64,000 nt of DNA. Source: a virus. The translations under genes were made by a program, and so were the position numbers. Under the pieces are notes generated by a model. The model was not told the origin of the DNA. It saw only the letters and a list, made by a program, of their open reading frames with translations, and ran no database searches. Location of the stretch: IMG/VR virus record IMGVR_UViG_3300024507_000442, positions 1 through 64,000 of that record; one strand, 5' to 3'. Below are positions 1 to 9,009 of the stretch, in pieces; the stretch's first letter is position 1, and each line of letters begins with the position of its first letter.

Positions 1-76
1 CTACATTGACTCCTTAGATGAGGTGGAACTTTGCGAACTTGAGGATTTTCTTGTCAACAACTTTGGAGATGATTGA
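1..76 (+). CDS. 3' end of a small hypothetical protein (partial)
   Basis: The last 24 codons of an open frame run from base 2 to a TGA at 74-76. The visible tail is acidic and ends ...FLVNNFGDD. It looks like the other short acidic early proteins that follow, and its stop overlaps the next ATG by one base (TGATG), so the two genes are probably translationally coupled. The start lies upstream of the window and no function can be assigned. Confidence 0.6.
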   Translation, partial: YIDSLDEVELCELEDFLVNNFGDD

Positions 77-270
77 TGACTGACGGTTACACTTTCAATC
101 GCGTTAATTTTACTCCTAATGAGGAAAGTTGTATTCTTAAGTTTCTCAATCAAGCACGAGAATGTGGGTATCCTAGTGCAAACGAAGAATGGTATCCTGT
201 GATCGATTCTATCTTCCAAAAATTCTTTAACTCTAACTTGAAAGAGGCACAAGAGTGGCAAACCCTGTGA
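76..270 (+). CDS. small hypothetical early protein, 64 aa
   Basis: The open frame starts at ATG 76, overlapping the previous stop by one base; GGAG at 65-68 gives a usable ribosome site 7 bases upstream. An in-frame TTG at 73 is not needed. The product has several aromatic residues and no recognisable domain, membrane segment or signal peptide. It belongs to the early-type run of tiny genes. The 137 bases after it, up to the next ATG at 408, hold two CTGCAG copies but no convincing promoter or terminator. Function unknown. Confidence 0.6.
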   Translation: MTDGYTFNRVNFTPNEESCILKFLNQARECGYPSANEEWYPVIDSIFQKFFNSNLKEAQEWQTL

Positions 271-407
271 TTCTCACTTGTGTCTCACTGAGAACCCAGT
301 CCACCACTGAAGCAAAAACCTGTTTTTTCTTCAATTCTACTGCAGCGGTGTCATAGGTCATTCACTGCAGGGAAATCCTCAATTTTTTCTAAAATACAAA
401 CAAACAC

Positions 408-551
408 ATGAAGTACATCGTTGAACTCTACGTTGGTGGCAAAGTCTTCAAAGAAGAAGTGCAAGCAACCAACCCAAAAGATGCCCGTGAGACTGCACTG
501 GCACGAAATCCTCACGCAAAAGTTGTTGCGGTCAATGTAAGTTTTCGTTGA
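408..551 (+). CDS. conserved small cyanophage protein, 47 aa
   Basis: ATG 408 opens a 47-residue frame (MKYIVELYVGGKVFKEE...) ending at TGA 549-551. The pattern of an N-terminal beta strand, a basic turn and then an NPKDARETALARNP helix matches small conserved hypothetical proteins I remember from cyanomyoviruses; this is recall, not a search. The leader is A/C-rich (tacaaacaaacac) with no Shine-Dalgarno. The first copy of the 32-bp repeat begins four bases after its stop. Confidence 0.65.
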   Translation: MKYIVELYVGGKVFKEEVQATNPKDARETALARNPHAKVVAVNVSFR

Positions 552-555
552 TTCT

Positions 556-587
556 AACTTGGATCCTCTAAAGTGTACCTATAGTAT
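556..587 (+). promoter_or_regulatory. 32-bp repeated early cassette, copy 1
   Basis: First of seven copies. The invariant parts are AACTTGGATCC, CTCTAAAG, GTGTACC and TATAGTAT. TTGGAT (559-564) and TATAGT (580-585) could be -35 and -10 boxes but are only 15 bp apart. The ATG of the next gene begins at 586, directly after TATAGT. The element starts four bases after the preceding stop codon. Early promoter is the favoured reading; an RNA-level signal is the alternative. Confidence 0.7.
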
Positions 588-756
588 GAGCAACACTTTC
601 ACCGTCCGTTTCGTATCCGATGCTCTGGATTCTCCCGAGTATATTGGACCTTTCTACACTGAAGATGACGCCCAAGACTATTGCGATGCCCGCAACGGTT
701 CGCTATCACTTTCTGGGATTCCTTCCTGGGTTGCCTGTTACTCTGTCGTTGACTGA
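586..756 (+). CDS. small hypothetical early protein, 56 aa
   Basis: ATG 586 is formed by the last two bases of the repeat plus G. The frame could extend upstream to a TTG at 559, but those codons are the repeat itself (DPLKCTYS) and would recur identically in other genes, so ATG is chosen. The product begins MSNTFTVRFVSDALDSPEYI and has the beta-rich, acidic look of small cyanophage proteins; no known domain. There is no Shine-Dalgarno, because the repeat fills that space. Six bases separate its stop from the next ATG. Confidence 0.65.
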   Translation: MSNTFTVRFVSDALDSPEYIGPFYTEDDAQDYCDARNGSLSLSGIPSWVACYSVVD

Positions 757-762
757 TTAGTA

Positions 763-897
763 ATGCGAATTGCTTTCCTGATTGCTACTATTGCACTTGG
801 TTTTAAAGTTGCAATTCCTGCTTATGCGACGGTGAATGAGTATCAAGAACGCCAAGCAGATCAGTTCTGCCAAATTGACCCTAACTACTGCAAATGA
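763..897 (+). CDS. small secreted or periplasmic protein with signal peptide, 44 aa
   Basis: A 44-residue frame (ATG 763, TGA 895-897) begins MRIAFLIATIALGFKVAIPAYA, which has a basic N-terminus, a hydrophobic core and an AYA cleavage motif: a clear Sec signal peptide. The mature part would be about 22 residues with two cysteines (QFCQIDPNYCK), compatible with one disulphide. The stop overlaps the next start (ATGATG). Its target is unknown. Export of a tiny cysteine-containing peptide by an early gene suggests action in the host membrane or periplasm, which is inference. Confidence 0.65.
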   Translation: MRIAFLIATIALGFKVAIPAYATVNEYQERQADQFCQIDPNYCK

Positions 898-1136
898 TGC
901 AATTCCAAGTTACTGAAATCGCTTTTGATTTTGATGATGAATGTCCGTATTGTGGCGAGAATCAATCTCCAGAACACGATGCAGAATGTGATGGATTCTT
1001 GGAGTTTGATTATGCCACTCAAGCAACAATCGGTCAAATCTGGGAGGCAGATGATGAAGAAGATTTAGTAGAAGAGATTACAACTGCCTACGGTTGGTGT
1101 ATCAAATCCATTGATTATCGCCACATCTTGAAATGA
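894..1136 (+). CDS. conserved acidic cyanophage protein with zinc-finger-like motif, 80 aa
   Basis: Starts at ATG 894 or the adjacent ATG 897, overlapping the upstream stop. Near the N-terminus Cys17, Cys20, His28 and Cys32 form a CxxC...HxxxC arrangement that could bind zinc. The C-terminal half (WEADDEEDLVEEITTAYGWC, then IKSIDYRHIL) resembles a small acidic family I recall from many cyanomyoviruses, whose other members in my memory lack the cysteines; the finger may be a variant insertion. The ATGA overlap with the next gene suggests coupling. Role unknown. Confidence 0.65.
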   Translation: MMQFQVTEIAFDFDDECPYCGENQSPEHDAECDGFLEFDYATQATIGQIWEADDEEDLVEEITTAYGWCIKSIDYRHILK

Positions 1137-1387
1137 TTTCCCTCCCTAACTTCACAAACAAAATGACACTTACTCAAGACCAATACGATAAACTGCTTGC
1201 ACTCTACATTGAGTCGATTGTTGATGGTATGGACCTCGACAGTTTGGTACAATTTGCAAGCGATACGATTGAAGAGAATCTCCGCGAAACTTGCTCACTT
1301 CCAGAAGAGTTAATCGAAGAGATTTCACGACTCTATGATGAGGATTATGTGAACGATTTGGTGGAAAGTGTAACACAAGAAAGTTGA
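1133..1387 (+). CDS. hypothetical acidic helical protein, 84 aa
   Basis: ATG 1133 overlaps the previous TGA (ATGA). The product is almost wholly predicted helix, rich in Glu, Asp and Leu (e.g. ESIVDGMDLDSLVQFASDTI), without cysteine motifs or membrane segments. It is the last gene of a four-gene block (586-1387) bounded by repeat copies 1 and 2. An internal start at 1163 (MTLTQDQYDKL) is possible and would give 74 residues. Function unknown. Confidence 0.6.
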   Translation: MISLPNFTNKMTLTQDQYDKLLALYIESIVDGMDLDSLVQFASDTIEENLRETCSLPEELIEEISRLYDEDYVNDLVESVTQES

Positions 1388-1391
1388 TAGC

Positions 1392-1423
1392 AACTTGGAT
1401 CCTCTAAAGTGTACCTATAGTAT
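1392..1423 (+). promoter_or_regulatory. 32-bp repeated early cassette, copy 2
   Basis: Identical over 32 bp to copy 1 and four bases after the upstream TGA. Here the ATG of the gene (1439) lies 15 bases beyond the element, so a transcript starting about 7 bases after TATAGT would carry a short A/C-rich leader without a Shine-Dalgarno. It precedes the MutH-like gene. Confidence 0.7.
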
Positions 1424-1438
1424 CACCGCAATTCCACA

Positions 1439-2029
1439 ATGTCCAAACTTACCACTTTGCAGGTATCTGCCAAACTGAATGTAACTGATTTCAGTGCATT
1501 TGATAAACCTGGCAAGAACAAAGGTGCTCGCGGGCAACTGTTAGAAATTGTCCTTGGAGTTCCTAACTCTTCTGACCTCAAAGATTTGGAGGATGGAGAG
1601 ATTAAGACTTTTACAGTTGGTGAATCTATTGCTGCCACACAGTTGAAGCATTGTCTATCTGAAATCATTGAAGATTCTGTGTCTTTTGATGATAGTAAGG
1701 TTGGACAGAAACTGAAGCAAACTGTATATGTTGGATTCACCCGTGAGAACGATTATGTAGGTTCTGTTGTACTGAATGAGGAAACTCATCCCGAACACTA
1801 TCAGGAACTGCGTGAGGATTATGAGTTCATTTGTGAGCAGATTCGCCGTGCATTTGATATTGAAAGCGAACTGAATACAATCACTGGACCTAACGGATTG
1901 CTGCAGATTCGCACCAAAGCATCTAAAACTAACGGTCGCTATGTTCCTCTCCGTTTCGCAGGTGTGACGCTTAAGGATAAAGGAATGGCATTTTATTTGT
2001 GTGGTTCATTCGGTCGCAATCTTTTCTGA
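1439..2029 (+). CDS. MutH/Sau3AI-family DNA endonuclease-like protein, 196 aa
   Basis: The protein aligns by eye along most of E. coli MutH: KGARGQLLEIVLG (28-40) matches KGWVGQLLEIWLG; the DGEIKTF segment (52-58) matches the catalytic D...ExK region (E54, K56, upstream Asp46 or Asp49, with Glu36 as the helix glutamate); then come KLKQTVYV, QELREDYEFI and LLQIRTKASK, matching the MutH KLKRVLWV, RQLREDWEEL and YLQIRPKA. MutH and Sau3AI act at GATC. In a phage this could be host-DNA nicking, mismatch repair or recombination; which one is inference. No methyltransferase or MutS/MutL is nearby. The gene stands alone between repeat copies 2 and 3, each of which contains GGATCC. Confidence 0.75.
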   Translation: MSKLTTLQVSAKLNVTDFSAFDKPGKNKGARGQLLEIVLGVPNSSDLKDLEDGEIKTFTVGESIAATQLKHCLSEIIEDSVSFDDSKVGQKLKQTVYVGFTRENDYVGSVVLNEETHPEHYQELREDYEFICEQIRRAFDIESELNTITGPNGLLQIRTKASKTNGRYVPLRFAGVTLKDKGMAFYLCGSFGRNLF

Positions 2030-2033
2030 TAGC

Positions 2034-2065
2034 AACTTGGATCCTCTAAAGTGTACCTATAGTAT
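2034..2065 (+). promoter_or_regulatory. 32-bp repeated early cassette, copy 3
   Basis: Identical 32-bp copy, four bases after the MutH-like gene's TGA. The next ATG (2064-2066) again begins directly after TATAGT, as in copy 1. Confidence 0.7.
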
Positions 2066-2246
2066 GACTAACACCTCTTTCGACTTCCAAACCGACATCA
2101 CTCCTGCACTTCTGGAGTTCATGTGCAACAATCACACAGATTTGAATGATTGTGTAGATTTCGTTTGCAATGTCTTTGACCTTGATGCAACTGACGAACT
2201 GATTGATTATGTTGCTGATGAGTTCGACGCTTTCTTCGGCAACTGA
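2064..2246 (+). CDS. small acidic hypothetical protein, 60 aa
   Basis: ATG 2064 uses the last two bases of the repeat. The product is strongly acidic with three cysteines and two short helical repeats (DLNDCVDFVCNVFDL, then DATDELIDYVADEFD). No domain recognised. Upstream in-frame TTG starts through the repeat are rejected for the reason given for copy 1. Thirty-one bases of A/C-rich leader separate it from the next gene, with which it forms a two-gene block. Confidence 0.6.
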   Translation: MTNTSFDFQTDITPALLEFMCNNHTDLNDCVDFVCNVFDLDATDELIDYVADEFDAFFGN

Positions 2247-2277
2247 TTCACACTCACTGTTTTACCACTAAATCACA

Positions 2278-2460
2278 ATGACACACTACAATCCTTACGT
2301 TCAAAATCTCATTGAAATGGGATATGATGCCCAAGATTGTTACGCTGTTGCTGCAGTAGGTGAATTGAACCCTACTTATCCGCGTAACATTCACGGTCGC
2401 ATCTTTGAGACTGAAGAAGAATATAAGCAAGCAGTTGCTGATTATATCAACGGTTTGTGA
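2278..2460 (+). CDS. small hypothetical protein, 60 aa
   Basis: ATG 2278 follows the A/C-rich leader (accactaaatcaca) with no Shine-Dalgarno. The product contains a UBA-like opening (YVQNLIEMGYDAQDCYAVAA) and a C-terminal acidic helix (FETEEEYKQAVADYINGL). The UBA resemblance is only a pattern match and may mean nothing. It ends 15 bases before repeat copy 4, the largest stop-to-repeat gap of the seven. Confidence 0.6.
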   Translation: MTHYNPYVQNLIEMGYDAQDCYAVAAVGELNPTYPRNIHGRIFETEEEYKQAVADYINGL

Positions 2461-2475
2461 TTCGTAAGAGTCACT

Positions 2476-2507
2476 AACTTGGATCCTCTAAAGTGTACCT
2501 ATAGTAT
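2476..2507 (+). promoter_or_regulatory. 32-bp repeated early cassette, copy 4
   Basis: Identical 32-bp copy. The ATG of the following gene is at 2506-2508, directly after TATAGT. This is the only copy separated from the preceding stop by more than four bases. Confidence 0.7.
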
Positions 2508-2736
2508 GAGCACTTACACTTCACCTCTCACCTCTAAAGTCTACGAAATCGTCAAGACTTCACACACACGAAACGCATGGGATTCTGAAGGCAATTTGAC
2601 TCCTTATGTGCAATCTGTCTTTGACATCTATCACGAAGGCAAAAAAGTTCAGTTTGCATTAACTGCTGAAGGTGTTGCTGAGAGTGTAGCACATCTTGAG
2701 AATCCTGGTCGTGATGTATCTTCCCGCTTTGACTGA
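2506..2736 (+). CDS. hypothetical early protein, 76 aa
   Basis: ATG 2506 lies at the end of repeat copy 4. The product starts MSTYTSPLTSKVYEIVKTSH and then has a predicted beta-hairpin (YVQSVFDIYHEGKKVQFALT) followed by a helix (AEGVAESVAHLEN). No family recognised. Its TGA is immediately followed by the ATG of a small membrane protein at 2737, so the two are almost certainly cotranslated. Confidence 0.6.
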   Translation: MSTYTSPLTSKVYEIVKTSHTRNAWDSEGNLTPYVQSVFDIYHEGKKVQFALTAEGVAESVAHLENPGRDVSSRFD

Positions 2737-2865
2737 ATGAGACGACAGAAAGTGAAAACAATTCTGTTAATCTTTATCGTTGCGAGTATCCTATCACCAG
2801 GAGTTCGTAACATCACTGCCACCACATTACACACTGTTGCTGACATTATTGCACCCCATGATTGA
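2737..2865 (+). CDS. small membrane or exported protein, 42 aa
   Basis: The frame opens with MRRQKVKTILLIFIVASILS: three basic residues and then a hydrophobic stretch at about 8-20, typical of a signal anchor or signal peptide. The rest (PGVRNITATTLHTVADIIAP) could be a second amphipathic segment. I recall similar short proteins in cyanomyoviruses but cannot name a family. It starts right after the previous stop and its 3' end overlaps the next start by 8 bases. A role at the host inner membrane is inferred only from topology. Confidence 0.6.
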   Translation: MRRQKVKTILLIFIVASILSPGVRNITATTLHTVADIIAPHD

Positions 2866-2995
2866 GACTGATTTCTACATTCTTTCCGAAGAACAATTTG
2901 CACAATTCTCACAACTTGCAGAGGAAATCAATGTGAGTATTGATTATTATTTGTGTGAGTTTTGTGATGTATCTGGACCTTTGATTGAAGTGTGA
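2858..2995 (+). CDS. small acidic hypothetical protein, 45 aa
   Basis: ATG 2858 overlaps the end of the small membrane-protein gene. The frame is open further upstream, but that part is the membrane-protein gene read out of frame, so the short start is preferred. The product is acidic and helical (FYILSEEQFAQFSQLAEEIN) with a CEFC pair near the C-terminus. Its TGA lies four bases before repeat copy 5. Function unknown. Confidence 0.5.
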   Translation: MIETDFYILSEEQFAQFSQLAEEINVSIDYYLCEFCDVSGPLIEV

Positions 2996-2999
2996 TACT

Positions 3000-3031
3000 A
3001 ACTTGGATCCTCTAAAGTGTACCTATAGTAT
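3000..3031 (+). promoter_or_regulatory. 32-bp repeated early cassette, copy 5
   Basis: Identical 32-bp copy, four bases after the upstream TGA. ATG 3030-3032 of the next gene begins directly after TATAGT. Confidence 0.7.
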
Positions 3032-3233
3032 GAGCACTTCCCAAATGTCCCAAATGTCTAAAGTCTACGCTGTGATTGGCGGTTTGGATTATGAAGGTGA
3101 AGACTTCAAATCTCTCCGCTTGTTTGATTGCTTCTCCGCTGCAGATGCTTACCTGAAGCATCTGGAAGCAAACTACGATTATGCTCTACTGGAAACCCGT
3201 GAGGTGAATGTAGAGTCTGCAATCGTTGCTTGA
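3030..3233 (+). CDS. conserved small cyanophage protein, 67 aa
   Basis: The product has a redundant start region (MSTSQMSQMSKVYAVIGG), so translation could also begin at Met6 or Met9. The core (GGLDYEGEDFKSLRLFDCFS, then AADAYLKHLEANYDYALLE) matches a small family I recall as widespread in T4-like cyanophages, of unknown function. It is a single-gene block between repeat copies 5 and 6. No Shine-Dalgarno is present in front of any of the three Met codons. Confidence 0.65.
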   Translation: MSTSQMSQMSKVYAVIGGLDYEGEDFKSLRLFDCFSAADAYLKHLEANYDYALLETREVNVESAIVA

Positions 3234-3237
3234 TTGC

Positions 3238-3269
3238 AACTTGGATCCTCTAAAGTGTACCTATAGTAT
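3238..3269 (+). promoter_or_regulatory. 32-bp repeated early cassette, copy 6
   Basis: Identical 32-bp copy, four bases after the upstream TGA. As in copy 2, the gene start (ATG 3287) is further away and is reached through an A/C-rich leader (accacaacttccaacc). Confidence 0.7.
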
Positions 3270-3286
3270 AACCACAACTTCCAACC

Positions 3287-3604
3287 ATGCGAAAGATTGA
3301 ACTCCAAATGAATAAAGCAATCATTGATTGCAAAGACTGGAAAAATGACAACACTGAAGTTCTCTATTCGCCCGAAAGAGATGCCTCTTATGTGTATCTT
3401 CACGGCAATCATATTGCAACGATTGGTGATACCTTCCTTGAACTTTACACCTGTGGTTATAGAACTGTAACCACCAAATCACGTCTCAATGCTATTCTGA
3501 AAGTTCATGGAAATGATGCTCGTATCTTTCAACGTGACTTTGAATGGTTTGTGATTGATAACGGCAACAAAGTTCCTTTCACTGAAGGTATGGTGCTTAA
3601 CTGA
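3287..3604 (+). CDS. conserved cyanophage protein of unknown function, 105 aa
   Basis: The sequence (MRKIELQMNKAIIDCKDWKN... SSP-like strand then YLHGNHIATIGDTFLELYTC, TTKSRLNAIL) corresponds to a family I recall from many cyanomyoviruses and their relatives, usually annotated only as hypothetical. It is beta-rich in the middle with a basic TKSRLN turn, and could bind nucleic acid, although nothing here proves that. An in-frame second Met (residue 8) is a possible alternative start. Its stop overlaps the following ATG (TGATG). It heads a four-gene block ending at the terminator at 4322. Confidence 0.7.
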   Translation: MRKIELQMNKAIIDCKDWKNDNTEVLYSPERDASYVYLHGNHIATIGDTFLELYTCGYRTVTTKSRLNAILKVHGNDARIFQRDFEWFVIDNGNKVPFTEGMVLN

Positions 3605-3630
3605 TGACTAACGAACAAAAGATTGAGGCA
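3602..3630 (+). repeat. 29-bp direct repeat, copy A
   Basis: Bases 3602-3630 are repeated exactly at 3762-3790 (it opens TGATGACTAACG and ends GATTGAGGCA). The repeat spans a stop/start junction and the first nine codons of a gene, so both downstream genes begin MTNEQKIEA. It is a scar of recombination or partial gene duplication. Confidence 0.85.
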
Positions 3631-3771
3631 TTACCCACAATCCGTACCTTCCCATATACGATTGGTCTCCGTACATACTTCTCGGAAGAAGAATATCAAA
3701 AAGCACTCCACGATTTCCTGACTTGGAGAAACCACCAACAGAGTAAAAGGAACCGCACTAATGATGACTAA
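3604..3771 (+). CDS. small hypothetical protein with duplicated N-terminus, 55 aa
   Basis: Frame from ATG 3604 to TAA 3769-3771. Residues 1-9 (MTNEQKIEA) are identical to the start of the next gene because of the 29-bp repeat. The remainder (TIRTFPYTIGLRTYFSEEEY, then QKALHDFL) resembles a short cyanophage protein I recall with its own N-terminus, so this looks like a chimeric front end stitched on by recombination. It overlaps the following gene by 8 or 11 bases. Confidence 0.6.
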   Translation: MTNEQKIEALPTIRTFPYTIGLRTYFSEEEYQKALHDFLTWRNHQQSKRNRTNDD

Positions 3772-3790
3772 CGAACAAAAGATTGAGGCA
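3762..3790 (+). repeat. 29-bp direct repeat, copy B
   Basis: Exact second copy of the block at 3602-3630. It covers the start of the gene beginning at 3761/3764. Confidence 0.85.
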
Positions 3791-4066
3791 CTGACTAATC
3801 TTCTGGACAACGTGATTCACTCTCTGAGTATGAAACAATACGAGATTGAAGATGCAACTGAATCTCATAAGTGTGAAGTAGAAGCAGACAACTATTACCA
3901 AAAGATGCTCACTCTAACTGAATCAAACAAAATGTTCACGATTCGCTACTTTACACCGTATCAACAACAGTGGAGAACGCAAACATTCTCTACACTAGAT
4001 GAAGCAAATCGTATGATTGAGTTCTACAAATCATGCGGAAGTCCTGCTGAACTCATTAACAACTAA
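3764..4066 (+). CDS. hypothetical protein, 100 aa, possibly two joined modules
   Basis: Two ATGs in a row (3761 and 3764); the second matches the start of the duplicated partner. The first half is helical and acidic (NLLDNVIHSLSMKQYEIEDA). The second half begins at an internal Met (MFTIRYFTPYQQQWRTQTFS, then EANRMIEFYKSCGSPAELI) and by itself looks like a complete small cyanophage protein I recall. The gene may therefore be a fusion, or the second half may have its own start at 3932. Function unknown. Confidence 0.6.
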   Translation: MTNEQKIEALTNLLDNVIHSLSMKQYEIEDATESHKCEVEADNYYQKMLTLTESNKMFTIRYFTPYQQQWRTQTFSTLDEANRMIEFYKSCGSPAELINN

Positions 4067-4073
4067 TCTTCCA

Positions 4074-4310
4074 ATGTTACTCTCCAAACAGTCATTCAAC
4101 AATCAACAAGTTCTCCCTTTCATAGTAAAGAAAGAGGATGAATATACTGAAGAAGGTAGTTACTCACTTCACCTATTCTCCCGAATCGTTATCACCAAGG
4201 AAGGAAAGAAATACCGATACTTACCTTTACGATTTGAAGGAGAAGAAGCACGATTCCGCAAACGTAGTGATGCAGAGGATTATGCAAGGTACAGATTAGC
4301 ACTTGATTGA
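4074..4310 (+). CDS. small hypothetical protein, 78 aa
   Basis: ATG 4074 lies 8 bases after the previous stop. The frame is open back to 4017, but that part overlaps the upstream gene, so ATG 4074 is chosen. The product has a beta-rich middle with basic patches (SRIVITKEGKKYRYLPLRFE) and a basic C-terminal helix (FRKRSDAEDYARYRLA). It is the last gene before the rho-independent terminator. Confidence 0.55.
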   Translation: MLLSKQSFNNQQVLPFIVKKEDEYTEEGSYSLHLFSRIVITKEGKKYRYLPLRFEGEEARFRKRSDAEDYARYRLALD

Positions 4311-4321
4311 TGATACACAGT

Positions 4322-4346
4322 GACCCCACATCAGGGGTCTTTTTTT
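4322..4346 (+). terminator. rho-independent terminator closing the first early block
   Basis: A GACCCC stem (4322-4327) pairs with GGGGTC (4334-4339) around the loop ACATCA, followed by a seven-T run (4340-4346). It lies 11 bases after the last plus-strand early gene and abuts the end of the convergent endonuclease gene. On the minus strand the stem has no U tract after it, so it should act mainly on plus-strand transcripts. Confidence 0.85.
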
Positions 4347-5358
4347 ATGCTTTTTCGTACCATCTATAACCATAAGCATTGCACCAAGTTTGCCCATTGT
4401 TTATACGTTGAATGTTGTTTTTGATATTAGCAACGCCACTATAATTACCATCACCTTTGATAAAGAATGACGCCTCACTCATACTACCAAATTCTACGAT
4501 TTCGTTGGTTTTAATACTTACACCATAGACAGGTTTCTTTCTTTTTTCGTTGCTAATTGCAGCAATTTTTTTATAGTGTTCTATTGAATTTGTTTTTGTT
4601 GCTGGTGTCCAATCTGTTGGTTTTGATCTAAAGAAATACCAACCTTTTACCTGTAATTTGCTATTGTCGGGACTGTTAAGTGAGTGATGAATAGCGTGAT
4701 TATTTGTACGATTTCCTTGTATTTCTTCTGCCGCATCTGCCATTGATTTCCACATCTTTTTACGCCCTAATGTTGGATTGATTCCATATACAGCACCACG
4801 AACATTTACTCTCTTTTCTATTACTTTAGGTGTTTCACCTTTCCAAGCCCATCTATATCCAAGTGCTTGAAATGTCACACCTTTAATGCAAGCAATTATC
4901 CCAGTTTTTCCCTTTTTATTTCCACAACTATCAGCAGCAATTCCTACACTCTCATAGTCTCTAACCCATTCACCTTCTAATGTATAACAACTCACTGCTT
5001 TGGAATGTGGATGATTTGCCCAATACTTTTTTGGTTTCTTTACACCATCACCACCTAATGTAATGTTATATCCATTCTTACCACAAGTATCAAGTTTGTT
5101 TATCCAAAAGGTTTCACGTTCATTAACATTATCATCGCTACATTCTTCCAATACTCTAAACTTAAAGTTATCTGCTCCGTACTTACATATGGCACGAACA
5201 ATAGGCATAGAGTGAGATGAATTGTTCTCTGCTAAATTATCCTTACTTCTTGCGTTCTGTAGGTGTTGCTTCCATCTATCATATGGGTTGGGTTGTGTAG
5301 TCTTTCCCACATAGAGTTTGCTATTCTCAAGGTTGGTGATTGAGTAGATGTATGCCAC
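4345..5358 (-). CDS. GIY-YIG homing endonuclease with NUMOD-like repeats, 337 aa
   Basis: The N-terminal GIY-YIG nuclease domain has YIY (3-5) and YVG (16-18) as the name motifs, Arg28 as the likely catalytic arginine, His32, and ERETFWI with Glu82 as the likely metal ligand. Behind it come three segments of about 55-60 residues (about 125-175, 187-245, 275-335) with the pattern (A/P)VY..., a SMADAAE/SMSEAS-type helix and GYRW or GWYF ends. These look like NUMOD1/IENR1-type DNA-binding modules. The start is GTG 5358. It is free-standing, not inside an intron, and is the only minus-strand gene. It probably spreads itself by cutting a related phage lacking the gene. A perfect TATAAATA lies upstream. 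Confidence 0.88.
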   Translation of the reverse strand: MAYIYSITNLENSKLYVGKTTQPNPYDRWKQHLQNARSKDNLAENNSSHSMPIVRAICKYGADNFKFRVLEECSDDNVNERETFWINKLDTCGKNGYNITLGGDGVKKPKKYWANHPHSKAVSCYTLEGEWVRDYESVGIAADSCGNKKGKTGIIACIKGVTFQALGYRWAWKGETPKVIEKRVNVRGAVYGINPTLGRKKMWKSMADAAEEIQGNRTNNHAIHHSLNSPDNSKLQVKGWYFFRSKPTDWTPATKTNSIEHYKKIAAISNEKRKKPVYGVSIKTNEIVEFGSMSEASFFIKGDGNYSGVANIKNNIQRINNGQTWCNAYGYRWYEKA

Positions 5359-5384
5359 TGAATTGATGAAAAATGTACTTGCGT

Positions 5385-5392
5385 TATTTATA
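5385..5392 (-). promoter_or_regulatory. T4-type late promoter for the homing endonuclease
   Basis: The minus strand reads TATAAATA exactly, the T4 gp55-dependent late promoter core, 26 bases upstream of the GTG start of the endonuclease. No Shine-Dalgarno is visible in the leader. Confidence 0.65.
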
Positions 5393-5418
5393 TTTAAGTG
5401 CTGAAATAATGATATTAG

Positions 5419-5482
5419 TTTTCCACAATGTTGTGGAAAAAGTATAATAAATGTGTGGAAAAACTGTTAGAATTGTGGAAAA
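5419..5482. promoter_or_regulatory. cluster of four DnaA-box-like TTTTCCACA sites
   Basis: TTTTCCACA occurs at 5419-5427 (plus) and as its complement TGTGGAAAA at 5432-5440, 5454-5462 and 5474-5482. The first two form a perfect 10-bp inverted repeat (TTTTCCACAA / TTGTGGAAAA) around TG, and the last three are direct repeats spaced 22 and 20 bp. TTTTCCACA is, as I recall, the DnaA-box form reported for cyanobacterial origins and is one base from the E. coli TTATCCACA. An AT-rich tract (about 5380-5420) lies alongside. Possible roles are an origin, DnaA capture or an operator. Confidence 0.6.
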
Positions 5483-5542
5483 CTTATAGTCATTTAAATG
5501 TCTCTGGGGGTCGTTATCTTACAGGTCATTCTATCACACTCG

Positions 5543-5624
5543 CCCCCAAAATGTCAATACCCCCGCGTTCTCAAATCCCCACAATCCCCCCGCATAAATC
5601 CACCGACCCCTGATAAATACCCCC
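5543..5624. other. array of six C-runs (G-quadruplex-capable on the minus strand)
   Basis: Runs of four to six C at 5543-5547, 5560-5564, 5577-5580, 5586-5591, 5607-5610 and 5620-5624 lie in 82 bases of an otherwise AT-rich genome; spacers are 5-15 bases. The complementary strand therefore has six G-runs. A GGGGG run in the opposite sense lies at 5506-5510. A GATAAATA motif at 5612-5619 may be a weak late promoter. No credible gene lies in 5359-5686. Confidence 0.55.
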
Positions 5625-5630
5625 AGACCA

Positions 5631-5659
5631 TTGACAAAAACCGCCCAGCATCTTATAGT
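5631..5659 (+). promoter_or_regulatory. sigma70-type promoter
   Basis: TTGACA (5631-5636), a 17-bp spacer and TATAGT (5654-5659) match the housekeeping sigma consensus at 11 of 12 bases. It is 27 bases upstream of the ATG at 5687, leaving a leader of about 20 bases with AGGAG. The -10 box has the same hexamer as the 32-bp cassettes. Confidence 0.8.
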
Positions 5660-5686
5660 AGTTTCATAACACACAGGAGCGAACTT

Positions 5687-5860
5687 ATGTCAGTTGCATA
5701 TCAGCAGGCACAGAAGCAGCGTTATAGGATTACTCTGGATCTATCAGTGTTCGGTGACTTCGACCCACACCAGATTGATTGGGAGAAGTTATTCAAGTTG
5801 GAACCTGCAGAGAAGTGTGATGCTTATGTTGAGGACCTAAGTACACCTGACCGATGGTAA
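5687..5860 (+). CDS. small early protein, 57 aa
   Basis: ATG 5687 has AGGAG at 5675-5679, 7 bases upstream, and a strong promoter at 5631. A longer open frame from 5498 is rejected because it would span the C-run array and the promoter. The product (MSVAYQQAQKQRYRITLDLS, then acidic DFDPHQIDWEKLFKLEPAEK) is a mixed-charge small protein with no recognised domain. Being driven directly by a host-type promoter, it is probably one of the first genes expressed after infection. Confidence 0.7.
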   Translation: MSVAYQQAQKQRYRITLDLSVFGDFDPHQIDWEKLFKLEPAEKCDAYVEDLSTPDRW

Positions 5861-5895
5861 TTTGGTATCAATTTATACCATATAAGGCGTTTTTA

Positions 5896-5942
5896 TTTTG
5901 TTAACATAAAGCATAAATAATCGGGTCTTTATGTTAACAAAA
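5896..5942. promoter_or_regulatory. perfect 16-bp inverted repeat with 15-nt loop
   Basis: TTTTGTTAACATAAAG (5896-5911) is the exact reverse complement of 5927-5942. The loop (5912-5926) contains CATAAATA, a late-promoter-like octamer. There is no T-run, so it is not an ordinary terminator. The right arm ends on the A of the ATG at 5942, so in RNA the hairpin would sit against the start codon; in DNA it could be a dimer operator. Confidence 0.7.
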
Positions 5943-6121
5943 TGAGAACACTAAAATATAAACATTTGGGCGACATGAGGATTATACGAGTCGCCCAAAT
6001 AACCACTGATATTCTACCTCAACTGCAAGAGGTTATGCAACAGTTAGAGGAGAACGGTGAGGATAGTCGTGAGGTGATATTGCGCGTCTTAAGTGATATC
6101 GAAGACCGTCTGGGTAACTGA
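5942..6121 (+). CDS. small hypothetical protein, 59 aa
   Basis: Frame from ATG 5942 to TGA 6119-6121. The 16-bp hairpin abuts this ATG, and a second hairpin (5964-6000) lies within the first codons with the internal ATG 5975 at the start of its loop, so the actual start may be 5942 or 5975 (48 aa, MRIIRVAQITTDILPQLQEV). The C-terminal part is an amphipathic helix rich in Glu. No family recognised. Its TGA directly abuts repeat copy 7. Confidence 0.55.
   Translation: MRTLKYKHLGDMRIIRVAQITTDILPQLQEVMQQLEENGEDSREVILRVLSDIEDRLGN
5964..6000. promoter_or_regulatory. perfect 11-bp inverted repeat with 15-nt loop
   Basis: ATTTGGGCGAC (5964-5974) and GTCGCCCAAAT (5990-6000) are exact reverse complements around a 15-base loop that opens with ATGAGG. 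It lies 21 bases after the 16-bp inverted repeat, has the same loop length, and falls inside the start of the gene at 5942. An operator or translational switch is possible. Confidence 0.6.
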
Positions 6122-6153
6122 AACTTGGATCCTCTAAAGTGTACCTATAGTGT
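6122..6153 (+). promoter_or_regulatory. 32-bp repeated early cassette, copy 7 (variant end)
   Basis: 31 of 32 bases match the other copies; the final TAT is TGT, which removes the adjacent ATG found in four copies. It begins at the base after the upstream TGA. The gene it serves starts with GTG at 6176 after an A/C-rich leader. Confidence 0.7.
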
Positions 6154-6175
6154 AAGGACAACCACAAACCACTAA

Positions 6176-6379
6176 GTGACTCAAATCGAACTGAACACCG
6201 CTATCGAGAATGCCTTCCAACTTTGTGCCGCTCAGAGTTGGGAACTGTTCGACGCCTGGTATGAGCGTCTGCACAATGTTCAGGTGATTGATAACATTGA
6301 GCACATCACAGAAATCGAAGCAGAGCATAACGAAACGAACCTCAATCTGATGCTCGCTGGTGTTATGCCTTCTGCCTGA
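6176..6379 (+). CDS. small helical hypothetical protein, 67 aa
   Basis: GTG 6176 opens a frame beginning (M)TQIELNTAIENAFQLCAAQS and is chosen because no ATG occurs near the front of the frame and the A/C-rich leader fits other early genes of the window. The product is acidic and almost entirely helical. It is the first gene after repeat copy 7 and is followed 34 bases later by the next gene, again with an A/C-rich leader. Function unknown. Confidence 0.55.
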   Translation: MTQIELNTAIENAFQLCAAQSWELFDAWYERLHNVQVIDNIEHITEIEAEHNETNLNLMLAGVMPSA

Positions 6380-6413
6380 TTTCGTCTCTTAATTAACACT
6401 CACAACACACACA

Positions 6414-6671
6414 ATGACTGTTACTTTCCAAGCAAATCTGACCGATACTGAGTATAACGGTTGGACGAATTATGAGACCTGGAATGTTGCTCTCTGGATT
6501 CAAAATGATGAGGGTTTCTATAGTCTTGCCCGTGAGGTAGGTAACTATGAAGACTTCGTAGATGCTCTGGAAGCGTGTTCTTTCAATTCCCTAAAAACGC
6601 CTGACGGAGTATCATTCAAAGACCCCAAGATTAACATCCTTGAGATTAACTCTGACGTGTTCGATTTCTGA
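6414..6671 (+). CDS. phage protein of the NGWTNYETWNVALWI type, 85 aa
   Basis: Residues about 15-30 read NGWTNYETWNVALWIQND, a signature I recall from a small conserved phage family of unknown function (possibly a numbered DUF of about 7200; not certain). The remaining residues are an acidic helix and a strand-rich end. The leader (aacactcacaacacacacaATG) has no Shine-Dalgarno. The family is common in cyanomyoviruses and other phages as a small accessory gene. Confidence 0.7.
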   Translation: MTVTFQANLTDTEYNGWTNYETWNVALWIQNDEGFYSLAREVGNYEDFVDALEACSFNSLKTPDGVSFKDPKINILEINSDVFDF

Positions 6672-6757
6672 CCTTAAGTAACAACAAGGGGGGAATAAGA
6701 TGCGCCCTATAAAGACACTTACTCAACACACACTGATTTACACTTTTCTTCTTCATT

Positions 6758-6928
6758 ATGTCCAAGCAAGTTCTTCTTTCTCTGCTGGCACAAGGTAACA
6801 ACGGCAGCGAAATTCTGTCCATTCTGGATGCAATCGTTGCTGATAATGTTGCTGGTTTCGATTATATCGAGTCGCCGCAACTTGAGTCGGCACTGGGTAT
6901 TCCTACTCTGGAAGAGATTGCCTTCTGA
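6758..6928 (+). CDS. small conserved cyanophage protein, 56 aa
   Basis: ATG 6758 to TGA 6926-6928. The product (MSKQVLLSLLAQGNNGSEIL, then SILDAIVADN and a C-terminal PTLEEIAF) resembles a short family found in cyanomyovirus early regions, usually ending in PTLEEIxF. It is mostly helix. The leader is pyrimidine-rich with no Shine-Dalgarno. It is the last of the early-type genes in this window. Confidence 0.6.
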   Translation: MSKQVLLSLLAQGNNGSEILSILDAIVADNVAGFDYIESPQLESALGIPTLEEIAF

Positions 6929-6977
6929 TTGTTAGTAACTGTATGCCCCTTGGTTGTTAGACAGAGCGTGAGCGATG

Positions 6978-7006
6978 TTGACACTGAGGGGCGTTTATGT
7001 TATGAT
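6978..7006 (+). promoter_or_regulatory. sigma70-type promoter
   Basis: TTGACA (6978-6983), a 17-bp spacer and TATGAT (7001-7006) match the consensus at 11 of 12 bases. Transcription would begin near 7013 and run into a structured, gene-free stretch of about 170 bases before the next gene at 7187. Confidence 0.7.
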
Positions 7007-7012
7007 TGGCAG

Positions 7013-7095
7013 TGATGCTTATCGGCAGTTAATTGCCGCCGATTTGTTATAGCGCCGCGCGGCGTTGTTATAAGCCCGCCGATGCCCCCCCCCCT
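7013..7095 (+). ncRNA. candidate structured RNA or leader downstream of the promoter
   Basis: No open frame fits here. The stretch has ATCGGC...GCCGAT (7021-7026 with 7038-7043), then TTATA-CGCC (7047-7056) pairing with GGCG-TATAA (7061-7073), and ends in a run of ten C (7085-7094). The GC content is far above its surroundings. There is no U-run terminator, so it may instead be the 5' leader of the genes from 7187. It is listed only as a candidate. Confidence 0.35.
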
Positions 7096-7143
7096 TATTA
7101 AAAAAAGCAAACTACCCTAACCTACAGAGGTGACAAATCGACC

Positions 7144-7151
7144 GATAAATA
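7144..7151 (+). promoter_or_regulatory. candidate late promoter GATAAATA
   Basis: GATAAATA fits the NATAAATA late-promoter form described for cyanomyoviruses. It is 35 bases upstream of the GTG at 7187, with a strong ribosome site (GGAGG) between them. Confidence 0.5.
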
Positions 7152-7186
7152 TCAATCTCATAAAAATTTTCCGGAGGTATTTCTAA

Positions 7187-7303
7187 GTGTTTGGATGGAT
7201 TCACAAGAACGGTAAGAGTCGCCCCAATAAAAATAAATCAAAAGGTGCAGCAAGAACTTGTGCTCAAAAGAATGCTGCGAGAAAGCGAAAGAAGAAAAAA
7301 TGA
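7187..7303 (+). CDS. very small basic protein, 38 aa
   Basis: GTG 7187 is preceded by GGAGG at 7173-7177, the best ribosome site in this region, and the frame ends at TGA 7301-7303. The product (MFGWIHKNGKSRPNKNKSKG, then a tail rich in Arg and Lys) is extremely basic and probably binds nucleic acid or another phage protein. Similar short basic proteins occur in cyanophage structural clusters, but I do not know a function. Its end overlaps the next gene (ATGA). Confidence 0.6.
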   Translation: MFGWIHKNGKSRPNKNKSKGAARTCAQKNAARKRKKKK

Positions 7304-7443
7304 GAAGGAGAACACCATATTGGAATTTTTGGAGAGTGATACTCGCAGGTTGGATAATCAGATATCCAAAAACAATGGGTAGAATTGTATTAATCCCCCT
7401 GGGGGTTTTTGTTGTATTGATATATAATGCGTTAGTAAAATAA
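7300..7443 (+). CDS. small membrane protein, 47 aa
   Basis: ATG 7300 overlaps the previous TGA (ATGA), and GGAGAA within the preceding bases allows coupling. The product (MRRRTPYWNFWRVILAGWII, then RYPKTMGRIV) has an aromatic, basic front and a hydrophobic C-terminal segment (about 28-45, LIPLGVFVVLIYNALV) long enough for one membrane helix. It might be a holin-like or spanin-like accessory, but no family is recognised. Confidence 0.55.
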   Translation: MRRRTPYWNFWRVILAGWIIRYPKTMGRIVLIPLGVFVVLIYNALVK

Positions 7444-7483
7444 GTTTTTACTAAAAAATTTTCCGGAAAAAGTTTAATAAAAA

Positions 7484-7675
7484 ATGGAAAAAATATACCA
7501 CATATACGCAGGGGATAAGTGTTTATTCCACTCTATTAAAGAAGATGAGTTCTCGACCACTTGGAATACTCTGAAGAATATGGTGGAAATTATGAAAACT
7601 GATTACAATGCAGAGGATTTATCCTATGAGGAACTTATTGTAAATAAGGAAATTATTTTGAACTCCTCTCATTGA
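7484..7675 (+). CDS. conserved cyanophage protein, 63 aa
   Basis: ATG 7484 opens MEKIYHIYAGDKCLFHSIKE, continuing with FSTTWNTLKNMVEIMKTDYN and EDLSYEEL. The YHIY...C.(F/Y)HS...W.TLKNMV pattern is one I remember in nearly every T4-like cyanophage at this place, always of unknown function. The upstream gap carries the second copy of an AAAATTTTCCGGA block also found at 7163. The Shine-Dalgarno is weak. Confidence 0.7.
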   Translation: MEKIYHIYAGDKCLFHSIKEDEFSTTWNTLKNMVEIMKTDYNAEDLSYEELIVNKEIILNSSH

Positions 7676-7701
7676 CAAAAGCATATATAGACTGTTAAAA
7701 T
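7672..7701 (+). promoter_or_regulatory. candidate sigma70-type promoter
   Basis: TTGACA (7672-7677), an 18-bp spacer and TAAAAT (7696-7701) lie 24 bases upstream of the glycosyltransferase ATG. TTGACA overlaps the end of the preceding gene. TATATA at 7684 is too close to serve as the -10. Confidence 0.5.
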
Positions 7702-7725
7702 TGATGTTGAAGGTTATTTTAACTT

Positions 7726-8493
7726 ATGGCAAAAGGATTCACTGTTAAAACTGTAGCACCAAAGAAGTCCACTGAAGAATGGGACTACGATGCGATTAAA
7801 GAAAGGATGAAGGGTAAGAGTATTGTATTCTGTCTTCCTGGACGAGGATGCTCTTATATCTTTTTGAAAGCATTTGTACAACTTTGTTTTGATATTGTAC
7901 AAAATGGAATGAGTATTCAAATTTCTCAAGATTATTCATCAATGGTTAACTTTGCACGATGCAAGTGTCTTGGAGCAAATGTTCTCCGTGGACCAAACCA
8001 AAAACCTTGGGATGGAAAACTTCAATATGATTATCAGCTCTGGATTGATAATGATATTGTTTTTGATTCTAACAAGTTCTGGCAGCTTTGTGATTTAGCT
8101 CTTTCTGCTGAAGGAGAAGAGAAAGAAGTTGTTGCAGGTTGGTACGCAACAGAAGATGGTCACACAACTTCTGTCGCACACTGGTTAGAAGAAGATGATT
8201 TCCGTAAGAATGGTGGTGTAATGAACCACGAAACTGTGGAATCAATCAGCAAGCGTCGTAAGCCATTCACTGTAGATTACACAGGTTTTGGATGGGTTAT
8301 GATTAAGAATGGAGTCTTTGAGAATCTTGAGTATCCTTGGTTTGCTCCGAAGATGCAAGTCTTTGAGTCTGGTAATGTTCAAGATATGTGTGGCGAAGAT
8401 GTTTCATTCTGTCTTGATGCCAAGGATGCGGGGTTTGATATCTGGTGCGATCCTCGCATTAGAGTTGGACATGAAAAAACTCGCATTATCTAA
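7726..8493 (+). CDS. GT-A-fold glycosyltransferase-like protein, 255 aa
   Basis: The protein has the features of a family 2-like GT-A transferase: after a short N-terminal extension, a strand with SIVFCLPGRG (32-41), a metal/sugar-nucleotide DND motif (D108-N109-D110 in LWIDNDIVFD), a GFGWVMIKNG acceptor-side block (187-196), and a C-terminal GEDVSFCLDAKDAGFDIW... with GH (248-249) before the basic end. The substrate is unknown; phage DNA, a virion protein or a host envelope sugar are all possible. It has its own likely promoter and is followed by a coupled small gene (TAATG overlap). The family assignment is good, the role uncertain. Confidence 0.75.
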   Translation: MAKGFTVKTVAPKKSTEEWDYDAIKERMKGKSIVFCLPGRGCSYIFLKAFVQLCFDIVQNGMSIQISQDYSSMVNFARCKCLGANVLRGPNQKPWDGKLQYDYQLWIDNDIVFDSNKFWQLCDLALSAEGEEKEVVAGWYATEDGHTTSVAHWLEEDDFRKNGGVMNHETVESISKRRKPFTVDYTGFGWVMIKNGVFENLEYPWFAPKMQVFESGNVQDMCGEDVSFCLDAKDAGFDIWCDPRIRVGHEKTRII

Positions 8494-8648
8494 TGAACTA
8501 TCACGTACTTTATAAAGGACGTAAAATTTATATGAACCTCACTACAGATGAATGTCTTGAGGTTCTTCAAGACTTATCTGAGCGTTTTTACTCGGGTGAT
8601 GATATTGATCCTAATTTAATTGAACTGGAGGAAATTAACAATGGCTAA
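8493..8648 (+). CDS. small hypothetical protein, 51 aa
   Basis: ATG 8493 overlaps the glycosyltransferase stop (TAATG) and the TAA is at 8646-8648. The product (MNYHVLYKGRKIYMNLTTDE, then CLEVLQDLSERFYSGDDIDP) is acidic with a beta-hairpin front and a helical middle. The 3' end overlaps the next gene by 8 bases and contains that gene's ribosome site (GGAGG). No function recognised. Confidence 0.6.
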   Translation: MNYHVLYKGRKIYMNLTTDECLEVLQDLSERFYSGDDIDPNLIELEEINNG

Positions 8649-8781
8649 AGGTGGAAGTAATAAAACCGTATTTGAACCAGGAGCACCTAAAAAGACTCGT
8701 CAAGGACGTTCTGCTCGAACACTTCTCAGTGCAACCTCTCGCAATGGACGTAAGAAAAGGTATCGTGGTCAAGGGAAGTAA
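8641..8781 (+). CDS. conserved small basic cyanophage protein (MAKGGSNKT type), 46 aa
   Basis: The sequence MAKGGSNKTVFEPGAPKKTR followed by QGRSARTLLSATSRN and a KKRYRGQGK end matches a very conserved short protein I remember from T4-like cyanophages. It is strongly basic and low in hydrophobics, so probably binds nucleic acid or assembles with other proteins. GGAGG at 8628-8632 serves as ribosome site. A strong terminator hairpin follows 24 bases after its stop. Confidence 0.7.
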   Translation: MAKGGSNKTVFEPGAPKKTRQGRSARTLLSATSRNGRKKRYRGQGK

Positions 8782-9009
8782 ATGCTTCAATTAAATCCAC
8801 AAATCCCAACCATTACCTTTTGGGGTAATGGTTGGGCTTTTTTTGTAATTGACCGTTCTCAAGAACACGATCTTGAATGGGTAGTTTTTCTAGATAGTAA
8901 TGGGGAATGTTGGACTTTTAAAAACTCTGATATTCGTATTCAGAAGAACTATACTCTTCATAGAAATAATCCAATCGGATTTTCTTCATGTACTACTCAG
9001 ATCCAATAG
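8782..9009 (+). CDS. conserved cyanophage protein, 75 aa, with a terminator inside its gene
   Basis: ATG 8782 follows the previous TAA with no gap. The product begins MLQLNPQIPTITFWGNGWAF and continues IDRSQEHDLEWVVFLDSNGE with CWTFKNSDIR, matching a family I recall from cyanomyoviruses (MLQLxPxxP...HDLxWVxFxDSxGECWT). Codons 9-20 also form the perfect hairpin plus T-run at 8805-8844, so many transcripts may stop inside the gene. An internal start after the hairpin is not obvious. The 3' end overlaps the next gene by 22 bases. Confidence 0.65.
   Translation: MLQLNPQIPTITFWGNGWAFFVIDRSQEHDLEWVVFLDSNGECWTFKNSDIRIQKNYTLHRNNPIGFSSCTTQIQ
8805..8844 (+). terminator. strong rho-independent terminator within a coding sequence
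   Basis: CCCAACCATTACC (8805-8817) pairs perfectly with 8824-8836 around TTTTGG, followed by C and seven T (8838-8844). It would end transcripts of the small basic gene at 8641-8781 just after its stop, yet lies wholly within the conserved 75-aa frame. Confidence 0.8.

Follow-up and report, generated by a model that had tools for sequence, protein, structure and literature searches.

A 64,000-nucleotide stretch of viral DNA (IMG/VR record IMGVR_UViG_3300024507_000442, positions 1 to 64,000; here called the window) carries seven nearly identical copies of a 32-bp cassette, AACTTGGATCCTCTAAAGTGTACCTATAGTRT, among small genes near its start. We propose, with a probability of about 0.6, that these copies are compact early-promoter cassettes lying between genes, that blocks of genes are gained, lost, or moved at them, and that one part of the cassette, the barcode, is homogenized within each genome. 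In the proposed layout, a barcode of about 8 to 9 bases follows the previous stop codon, where a -35 element would lie, and is itself followed by a conserved AAAGTGT block, then by TATAGT as a -10-like hexamer, and finally by RTRAGCA, a conserved start region. Transcription would probably begin near the A located 23 bases past the first T of the core, the part of the cassette that is shared among phages. Upstream transcription would not end at the cassette, and messages from earlier cassettes would continue across it. The RTR after TATAGT is ATG in about 40% of copies and would there serve as a start codon on those read-through messages.

The cassette array in the window and in related phages

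A pattern scan located exactly seven matches to the cassette in the window, all on the + strand, and none in 100 dinucleotide-preserving shuffles of the window. These are the seven copies that had been listed from the letters of the DNA alone (the sequence-only reading), six of them identical over all 32 bp; the copy at 6122 differs by one base, with GT for AT at its 3' end. The distance from the upstream stop codon to the cassette is 4, 4, 4, 15, 4, 4, and 0 bases for copies 1 to 7, in agreement with the 0 to 4 bases, and once 15, of that reading. Its statement that the flanks are unrelated is correct in general and fails where similarity continues on the 3' side (ATGAGCA...), and its count of one to four tiny genes per block had to be revised for the last block (3238-6122), which holds about six small open reading frames (ORFs) and a gene for a 337-amino-acid GIY-YIG homing-endonuclease-like protein on the opposite strand.

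In the 106,787-base record that holds the window, a search that allowed up to 3 mismatches across the inner 26 bases gave no further copies. G001 (IMG/VR 3300027541_000009), a longer record of 284 kb, agrees with the window at every one of its first 50,403 bases, and its array comprises 14 copies in a single orientation, spread over 18 kb; seven of these lie upstream of the window start, and the window therefore truncates the array. The region precedes gp25/gp6-type baseplate genes, like its counterpart in the Kyanoviridae S-SM2, Bellamy, and SynMITS9220M01, and the window phage looks like a T4-like cyanophage.

The sequence-only reading had suggested searching for the motif in the full genome and in related cyanophages. 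Beyond the copies in G001, S-SM2 has 12 copies of an equivalent cassette, detected by an assumption-free repeat search, and SynMITS9220M01 has 11, detected with the part common to S-SM2 and the window phage. The annotated genes of the cassette region in these two phages are oriented as the cassettes are. P-TIM68, RB11-B, and S-B05 have cassette versions of their own in which the core is more altered. When viral contigs were scanned with the shared part alone, at least 119 stretches were obtained, and equivalent cassettes are present at a minimum of about 100 uncultured loci; these loci were gathered by the exact core pattern without the barcode, which biases both the census and the apparent conservation of the core. 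Records nearly identical to that of the window phage, L105 (regarded as the IMG/VR copy of S-SM2), and identical-context duplicates were dropped before counting, as were cassettes near contig ends for the counts of gene starts.

Each genome carries its own barcode beside a shared core

The 3' half of the cassette, TAAAG(C/T)GTnCCTATAGTRTRAGCA, is shared, and the 5' half differs by phage, with GGGGGGTCG in S-SM2, TTACTCACC in SynMITS9220M01, and ACTTGGATC in the window phage. The first cassette set, used for the ortholog, adjacency, and start-codon comparisons below, admitted sites with a weak core if their barcode resembled that of a stronger site. The barcode comparison was repeated without this resemblance criterion. 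A core-only criterion returned 441 sites in 107 locus-strands, compared with 4 sites for the reversed pattern, and no locus had such sites on both strands. Among the 62 loci with at least three cassettes in this set (349 cassettes), barcode identity (positions -12 to -5) averaged 0.922 for the 1025 pairs within a locus and 0.367 for the 59,701 pairs between loci, whereas identity at core positions 1 to 7 was 0.967 within and 0.956 between. Segments outside the cassette gave 0.326 within and 0.285 between (-30 to -22) and 0.272 and 0.279 (+40 to +48). Directly upstream of the barcode (-21 to -13), the corresponding values were 0.554 and 0.373, indicating that homogenization fades over some bases. 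All barcodes were within 1 mismatch of the local consensus at 48 of the 62 loci, and the loci have 31 distinct consensus barcodes.

The barcode does not follow the gene downstream of it. In 17 mapped genomes, barcodes of different genomes that precede the same gene family were 0.429 identical (349 pairs), compared with 0.430 for other between-genome pairs (13,343) and 0.951 for pairs within a genome (843). Between the window phage and its relative L088, every one of the nine orthologous cassettes has a changed barcode (3 of 9 positions), while the flanking blocks match at 69 to 91%; between the window phage and L126, all seven differ, at 5 of 9 positions. Orthologous cassettes thus share no extra barcode similarity, which shows that the barcode tracks the genome and not the gene or the place. 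Recombination between copies is the most likely way in which barcodes become uniform within a genome, and a reader of the barcode is a possible reason for it. For viruses, the barcode offers a clean example of concerted change in a dispersed element of regulatory appearance.

Gene neighborhoods break more often at the cassettes

The copies are nearly alike within a genome and their core is common to many phages, which argues that the cassettes are sites where gene blocks are gained, lost, and moved. Gene maps of the 17 genomes and the neighbors of orthologous cassettes show the same small genes in different cassette-bounded blocks across relatives; for example, relatives such as L088 and L126 have homologues of ORFs 2064-2246 (family 43) and 2278-2460 (family 44) in different blocks, with different genes upstream. 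Gene adjacency was kept in another genome in 427 of 687 comparisons without an intervening cassette and in 159 of 403 comparisons with one, and none of 2000 shuffles was as extreme. The difference persisted within the cassette-bearing span (308/551 without versus 159/403 with a cassette; 1 of 2000 shuffles) and for intergenic gaps of at least 20 bases (156/269 versus 143/376; 1 of 2000 shuffles); these comparisons are not independent of each other, since the genomes are related. Relatives keep the cassettes with different genes between them, the outcome that the sequence-only reading had named as support for shuffling, and shuffling of gene blocks at the cassettes is supported. The same reading had suggested that identity of the cassette could be the handle for recombination. 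As worded, that idea is not supported for exchange between phages: they differ in the barcode, the part in which the copies of one genome are identical, and so only the core, about 20 bases, could serve as a handle between them.

Some cassettes carry a foreign barcode. Twenty-two copies differ from their locus consensus at two or more positions, and seven of the most divergent were traced. Three of the seven have flanking DNA that best matches a locus using that barcode, on both sides for L160 (matching L080) and L121 (matching L101) and downstream only for L086 (matching L089). Recent exchange between phages could be detected from cassettes that still bear a donor barcode. T4-like cyanophages abound in the sea and have numerous uncharacterized small genes in their variable regions; an alignable cassette marks the sites at which such genes are inserted or swapped, lets gene modules be cut from metagenomes by rule, and gives a predicted transcription start for each block.

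Promoter-like features and start codons

The cassettes are intergenic and oriented with the genes, and the -10-like hexamer of the 14 window-phage copies is TATAGT in 12 and TATAAT in 2. A canonical promoter-like site within the window has the same TATAGT hexamer (Table 1). Another site, read by eye, is TTGCAG-18-TATACT-GTAAGCA upstream of the S-SRM01 homologue of a cassette-preceded gene, and it appears to be the 3' part of the cassette behind a canonical -35.

Core positions 17 to 19 were ATG in 181 of 448 cassettes, GTA in 164, ATA in 53, and GTG in 13, and positions 17 and 19 are linked (Fisher P value of 1.7e-42). The ATG begins an ORF of at least 35 codons in 168 of the 181 ATG-type cassettes; of the rest, 11 close early and 2 reach the contig end. 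Counted by gene family in the 17 mapped genomes, the ATG is in frame in 26 of 31. An out-of-frame ATG at this place is thus avoided, indicating that translated messages contain the cassette. For non-ATG cassettes, gene starts fall from core +18 to +30 in only 8 of 247 cases and from +31 to +43 in 140 of 247 (by family, 1/52 and 34/52). Genes that lack a cassette, with distances taken from the preceding stop codon, number 29 and 27 in the ranges 18 to 30 and 31 to 43. This gap in start positions fits a transcription start at about +23, six bases after TATAGT, followed by a short leader. Taken together with the -10-like hexamer and the S-SRM01 and 5631-5659 sites, it leads us to infer that the cassettes act as promoters, presumably early ones, with a noncanonical, genome-specific -35 region, located in messages that read through them.

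Several observations weigh against this interpretation. The cassette has no canonical -35 (TTGACA at 16 to 18 bases), and the barcode occupies that position. TATAGT is present in only 6 of the 12 S-SM2 copies, with AGTAGT, ATTAGT, and others elsewhere; a plain sigma-70 -10 element would not tolerate such replacement well, and TARTRT, two bases further on, is a more conserved candidate. A second in-frame ATG within 60 bases is lacking in 51 of 168 ATG-type cassettes, and those genes must therefore be translated from read-through messages or from transcripts that start at or before position 17. A simple promoter scan listed no window copy on the + strand; it found 28 sites, compared with 23.7 in shuffles (standard deviation, 4.8), and two of its - strand matches overlap copies 2 and 6. 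Conservation of the core is inflated because the loci were collected by the exact core pattern, outside which the barcode lies. Finally, the homogeneity of the barcodes could be due to a reader and not to recombination. As to promoters on the opposite strand, two - strand matches are about what shuffles give overall, and the annotated genes run in the direction of the cassettes.

The best-surviving alternative, which we consider unlikely, is a promoter that starts transcription at core position 17, a purine (A or G), such that ATG-type messages would be leaderless and the others would have leaders of at least 14 bases. It would account for the ATG lying exactly at position 17 in 161 of the 172 ATG-type cassettes with room downstream and for the near absence of gene starts at 18 to 30, and in Bellamy, P-SSM2, S-SCSM2R, and S-CREM1 the homologous gene has what looks, by eye, like the sigma-70 geometry of a leaderless message. 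However, TATAGT would then touch the start site, which would require an unusual polymerase geometry, and no -10 lies at the right distance. This alternative also leaves unexplained the second in-frame ATG found at +15 in 60 of 168 ATG-type cassettes and at +18 in 18 of 168. Single-subunit RNA polymerase (PF00940) was matched in none of four records (G001, G002, S-SM2, and SynMITS9220M01), in a search whose positive controls gave no match either. The end of the core, CCTATAG, resembles that of T7/SP6-like promoters; a promoter of that type was set aside since that search matched no such polymerase and the near-invariant T after TATAG does not fit.

Less probable still is an element acting in RNA, as a translation-initiation, processing, or regulatory site in long polycistronic messages. 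A start codon ends about 40% of the copies and is evidently read in messages, as such an element would have it, but most other copies have their gene start at least 31 bases on, at a variable distance, and neither the 18-to-30 gap nor the TATAGT/TATAAT hexamer would be explained. Nor was a stem-loop found in the cassette, the mean folding z score being -0.35 for 80 cassettes sampled from the 448, and in window positions 1 to 8000 Rfam gave only two weak matches, far below gathering scores and taken as spurious. An RNA hairpin was rejected on the basis of this lack of a stable fold. Terminator function was rejected as well, because none of the 10 terminator-like sites in window positions 1 to 9000 overlaps a copy. 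The description of the cassette as stem-less in the sequence-only reading is borne out by both results. That the cassette is a recombination handle or selfish repeat and nothing else is very improbable: the excess of gene-order breaks and the near identity within each genome would follow from it, but it would not require a core conserved across diverse phages, a single orientation, or the start-codon gap.

A basic protein family associated with the cassettes

Records with the cassette (S-SM2, SynMITS9220M01, G009, and G001) were compared with records without it (Syn9, Bellamy, and S-CREM1), and after tblastn two proteins were left, a small, very basic family (family 18) and a 90-amino-acid protein. 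A 59-amino-acid protein and a glycosyltransferase had been dropped as cassette exclusive because tblastn found them in Bellamy; the list came partly from simple ORF calling. Family 18 occurs in 10 of 50,697 phage records, compared with 337 for a control gene of the same region. The 90-amino-acid protein occurs in 19, including phages without cassettes, and was likewise rejected as cassette exclusive. Family 18 proteins contain about 25 to 30% lysine plus arginine and begin with MKTFxxF (MKTL in S-SM2), which resembles the head-targeting start of T4 internal proteins. Two members tested had no match in Pfam or PHROG.

In a panel chosen from search matches, and hence not random, all seven phages with family 18 have 8 to 14 copies of one 12-mer in the early region. 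None of the eight phages without family 18 does; their most frequent 12-mer has 2 to 4 copies (2 to 3 in shuffles). The family 18 gene of S-B05 is in its complete record and not in the piece used for the repeat count, and RN05-S, which has family 18, is outside the panel. S-B43 is an exception, with four barcode copies in a 42-kb piece and no family 18 at an E value of 1e-5; its record is arranged unlike that of S-B05 about where the family 18 gene would lie, and a broken or misassembled region is possible. AG-345-E15, also outside the panel, has family 18 and only one weak possible cassette in a 16.8-kb fragment. In a gp6 tree, the cassette phages cluster, and Bellamy, which lacks both cassette and family 18, lies inside the cluster (two supports at Bellamy are low, 0.64 and 0.755, and the S-SCSM2R row is a wrong pick). 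The position of Bellamy argues for joint loss, but it is one event. Phylogeny confounds the link between family 18 and the cassettes, which is an association within a partly clustered set.

Family 18, which is nearly confined to cassette phages, is a candidate partner of the cassette that might be injected with the DNA. A role as a barcode reader with a variable recognition surface was rejected, since an alignment of 27 copies is conserved and not hypervariable; the family would thus read the core at most. A private promoter code, in which each genome would have its own barcode at the -35 position, read by a phage-specific factor, and all its cassettes would switch barcode jointly, with this basic family in the reading machinery and injected with the DNA, is conceivable but doubtful. 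If it were true, phages that share gene modules would keep separate transcription signatures.

Comparison with known systems

T4-type phages carry promoter-early stem-loop cassettes (PeSLs), reportedly the subject of Arbiol 2010 and Comeau 2014. Like PeSLs, the cassettes are short and intergenic and recur in numerous near-identical copies where a T4-like genome is variable, the small genes between copies differ among relatives, and genes are exchanged at the copies. Unlike PeSLs, the cassette has no stem-loop or terminator part, its upstream part is a genome-specific barcode, and about 40% of copies have a start codon in the 3' end. A section of PMC4503421 discusses PeSLs for cyanophage S-PM2 and judges them too sparse there. 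On the features seen in the DNA, we provisionally class the cassettes as a variant of mobile early-promoter cassettes.

An early regulatory element of cyanophage Syn9 is reportedly described in Doron 2016 (ISME J). Both elements belong to the presumed early region of a T4-like cyanophage. The cassette core has 0 matches in the Syn9 record, with a pattern that also misses the diverged cassettes of S-B05, and no 12-mer exceeds 4 copies there in the repeat test. Syn9 has A(C/G)TGTCCAC directly after three stop codons, plus TATTCTATAAGAGTCAAAG sites; Bellamy has A(C/G)TGTCCAC and TATTCTATAAGAGTCAAAG-like sites, and S-CREM1 has A(C/G)TGTCCAC. A(C/G)TGTCC resembles part of the cassette core, and a distant relation is therefore possible. 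Kyanoviridae show two early-region styles, barcoded cassettes or A(C/G)TGTCCAC (L060, S-SM2; L170, Syn9; L061, Bellamy; L059, S-CREM1). One further record, G005 (L006, L249, and L250), is 99.7% identical to the window phage as far as about window position 200 to 270, beyond which the sequence is that of a phage with Syn9-type sites. Either natural recombination or chimeric assembly could account for this record, and it was kept out of the evidence. In S-CREM1, Bellamy, S-SCSM2R, and P-SSM2 (L059, L061, L244, and L247), a -10-like hexamer appears, by eye, to lie exactly six bases before the ATG of the DUF6267 gene, a spacing that suggests leaderless messages.

The cassette shares a TATAGT/TATAAT -10-like hexamer with the host-type sigma-70 promoters of cyanophages but has the barcode and AAAGTGT in place of their conserved TTGACA. 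T4 middle promoters consist of a MotA box at -30 plus a -10. The cassette similarly has a box other than a -35 before a -10, whereas its box varies among genomes. According to a passage of PMC2984593, motA and asi are missing from cyanomyoviruses. The cyanophage promoters described in portions of PMC2984593 and PMC3037559 are sigma-70-like and late ones, and no such cassette is mentioned there. Literature matches listed for cassette strings and for concerted evolution were unrelated. The genome-specific barcode is the new part; an earlier description of the core in Doron 2016 or in the PeSL papers is possible.

Other features of the window

The coordinates of the cassettes and of associated features are given in Table 1. 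The GIY-YIG homing-endonuclease-like gene opposes the direction of its block and adjoins a terminator-like hairpin. A 29-base perfect direct repeat (3602-3630 and 3762-3790) spans the starts of two adjacent ORFs (MTNEQKIEA) and is a possible local duplication.

Table 1. Cassettes and related features (window positions unless a locus is named)
Feature	Position	Strand	Details
Cassette copy 1	556..587	+	Barcode 557-565 (ACTTGGATC), core 569-587, TATAGT 580-585; predicted transcription start near 592; ATG 586-588 begins 56-codon ORF 586-756
Cassette copy 2	1392..1423	+	Core T 1405; non-ATG type (TATAGTATC); gene start 1439 (core +34)
Cassette copy 3	2034..2065	+	Core T 2047; ATG type, ORF 2064-2246
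Cassette copy 4	2476..2507	+	Core T 2489; ATG type, ORF 2506-2736
Cassette copy 5	3000..3031	+	Core T 3013; ATG type, ORF 3030-3233; second in-frame ATG 3045
Cassette copy 6	3238..3269	+	Core T 3251; non-ATG type (TATAGTATA); gene start 3287 (core +36)
Cassette copy 7	6122..6153	+	One-base variant (TATAGTGTA); core T 6135; likely GTG start 6176 (core +41)
Cassette-bounded small-gene blocks	586..6121	+	
Terminator-like hairpin	4322..4339	+	Within last block, not at a cassette
GIY-YIG homing-endonuclease-like gene	4345..5358	-	
Canonical promoter-like site, TTGACA-17-TATAGT	5631..5659	+	Before ORF 5687-5860; TATAGT hexamer in common with cassette
Family 18 gene	L052:5642-6250		Also at 26 further loci

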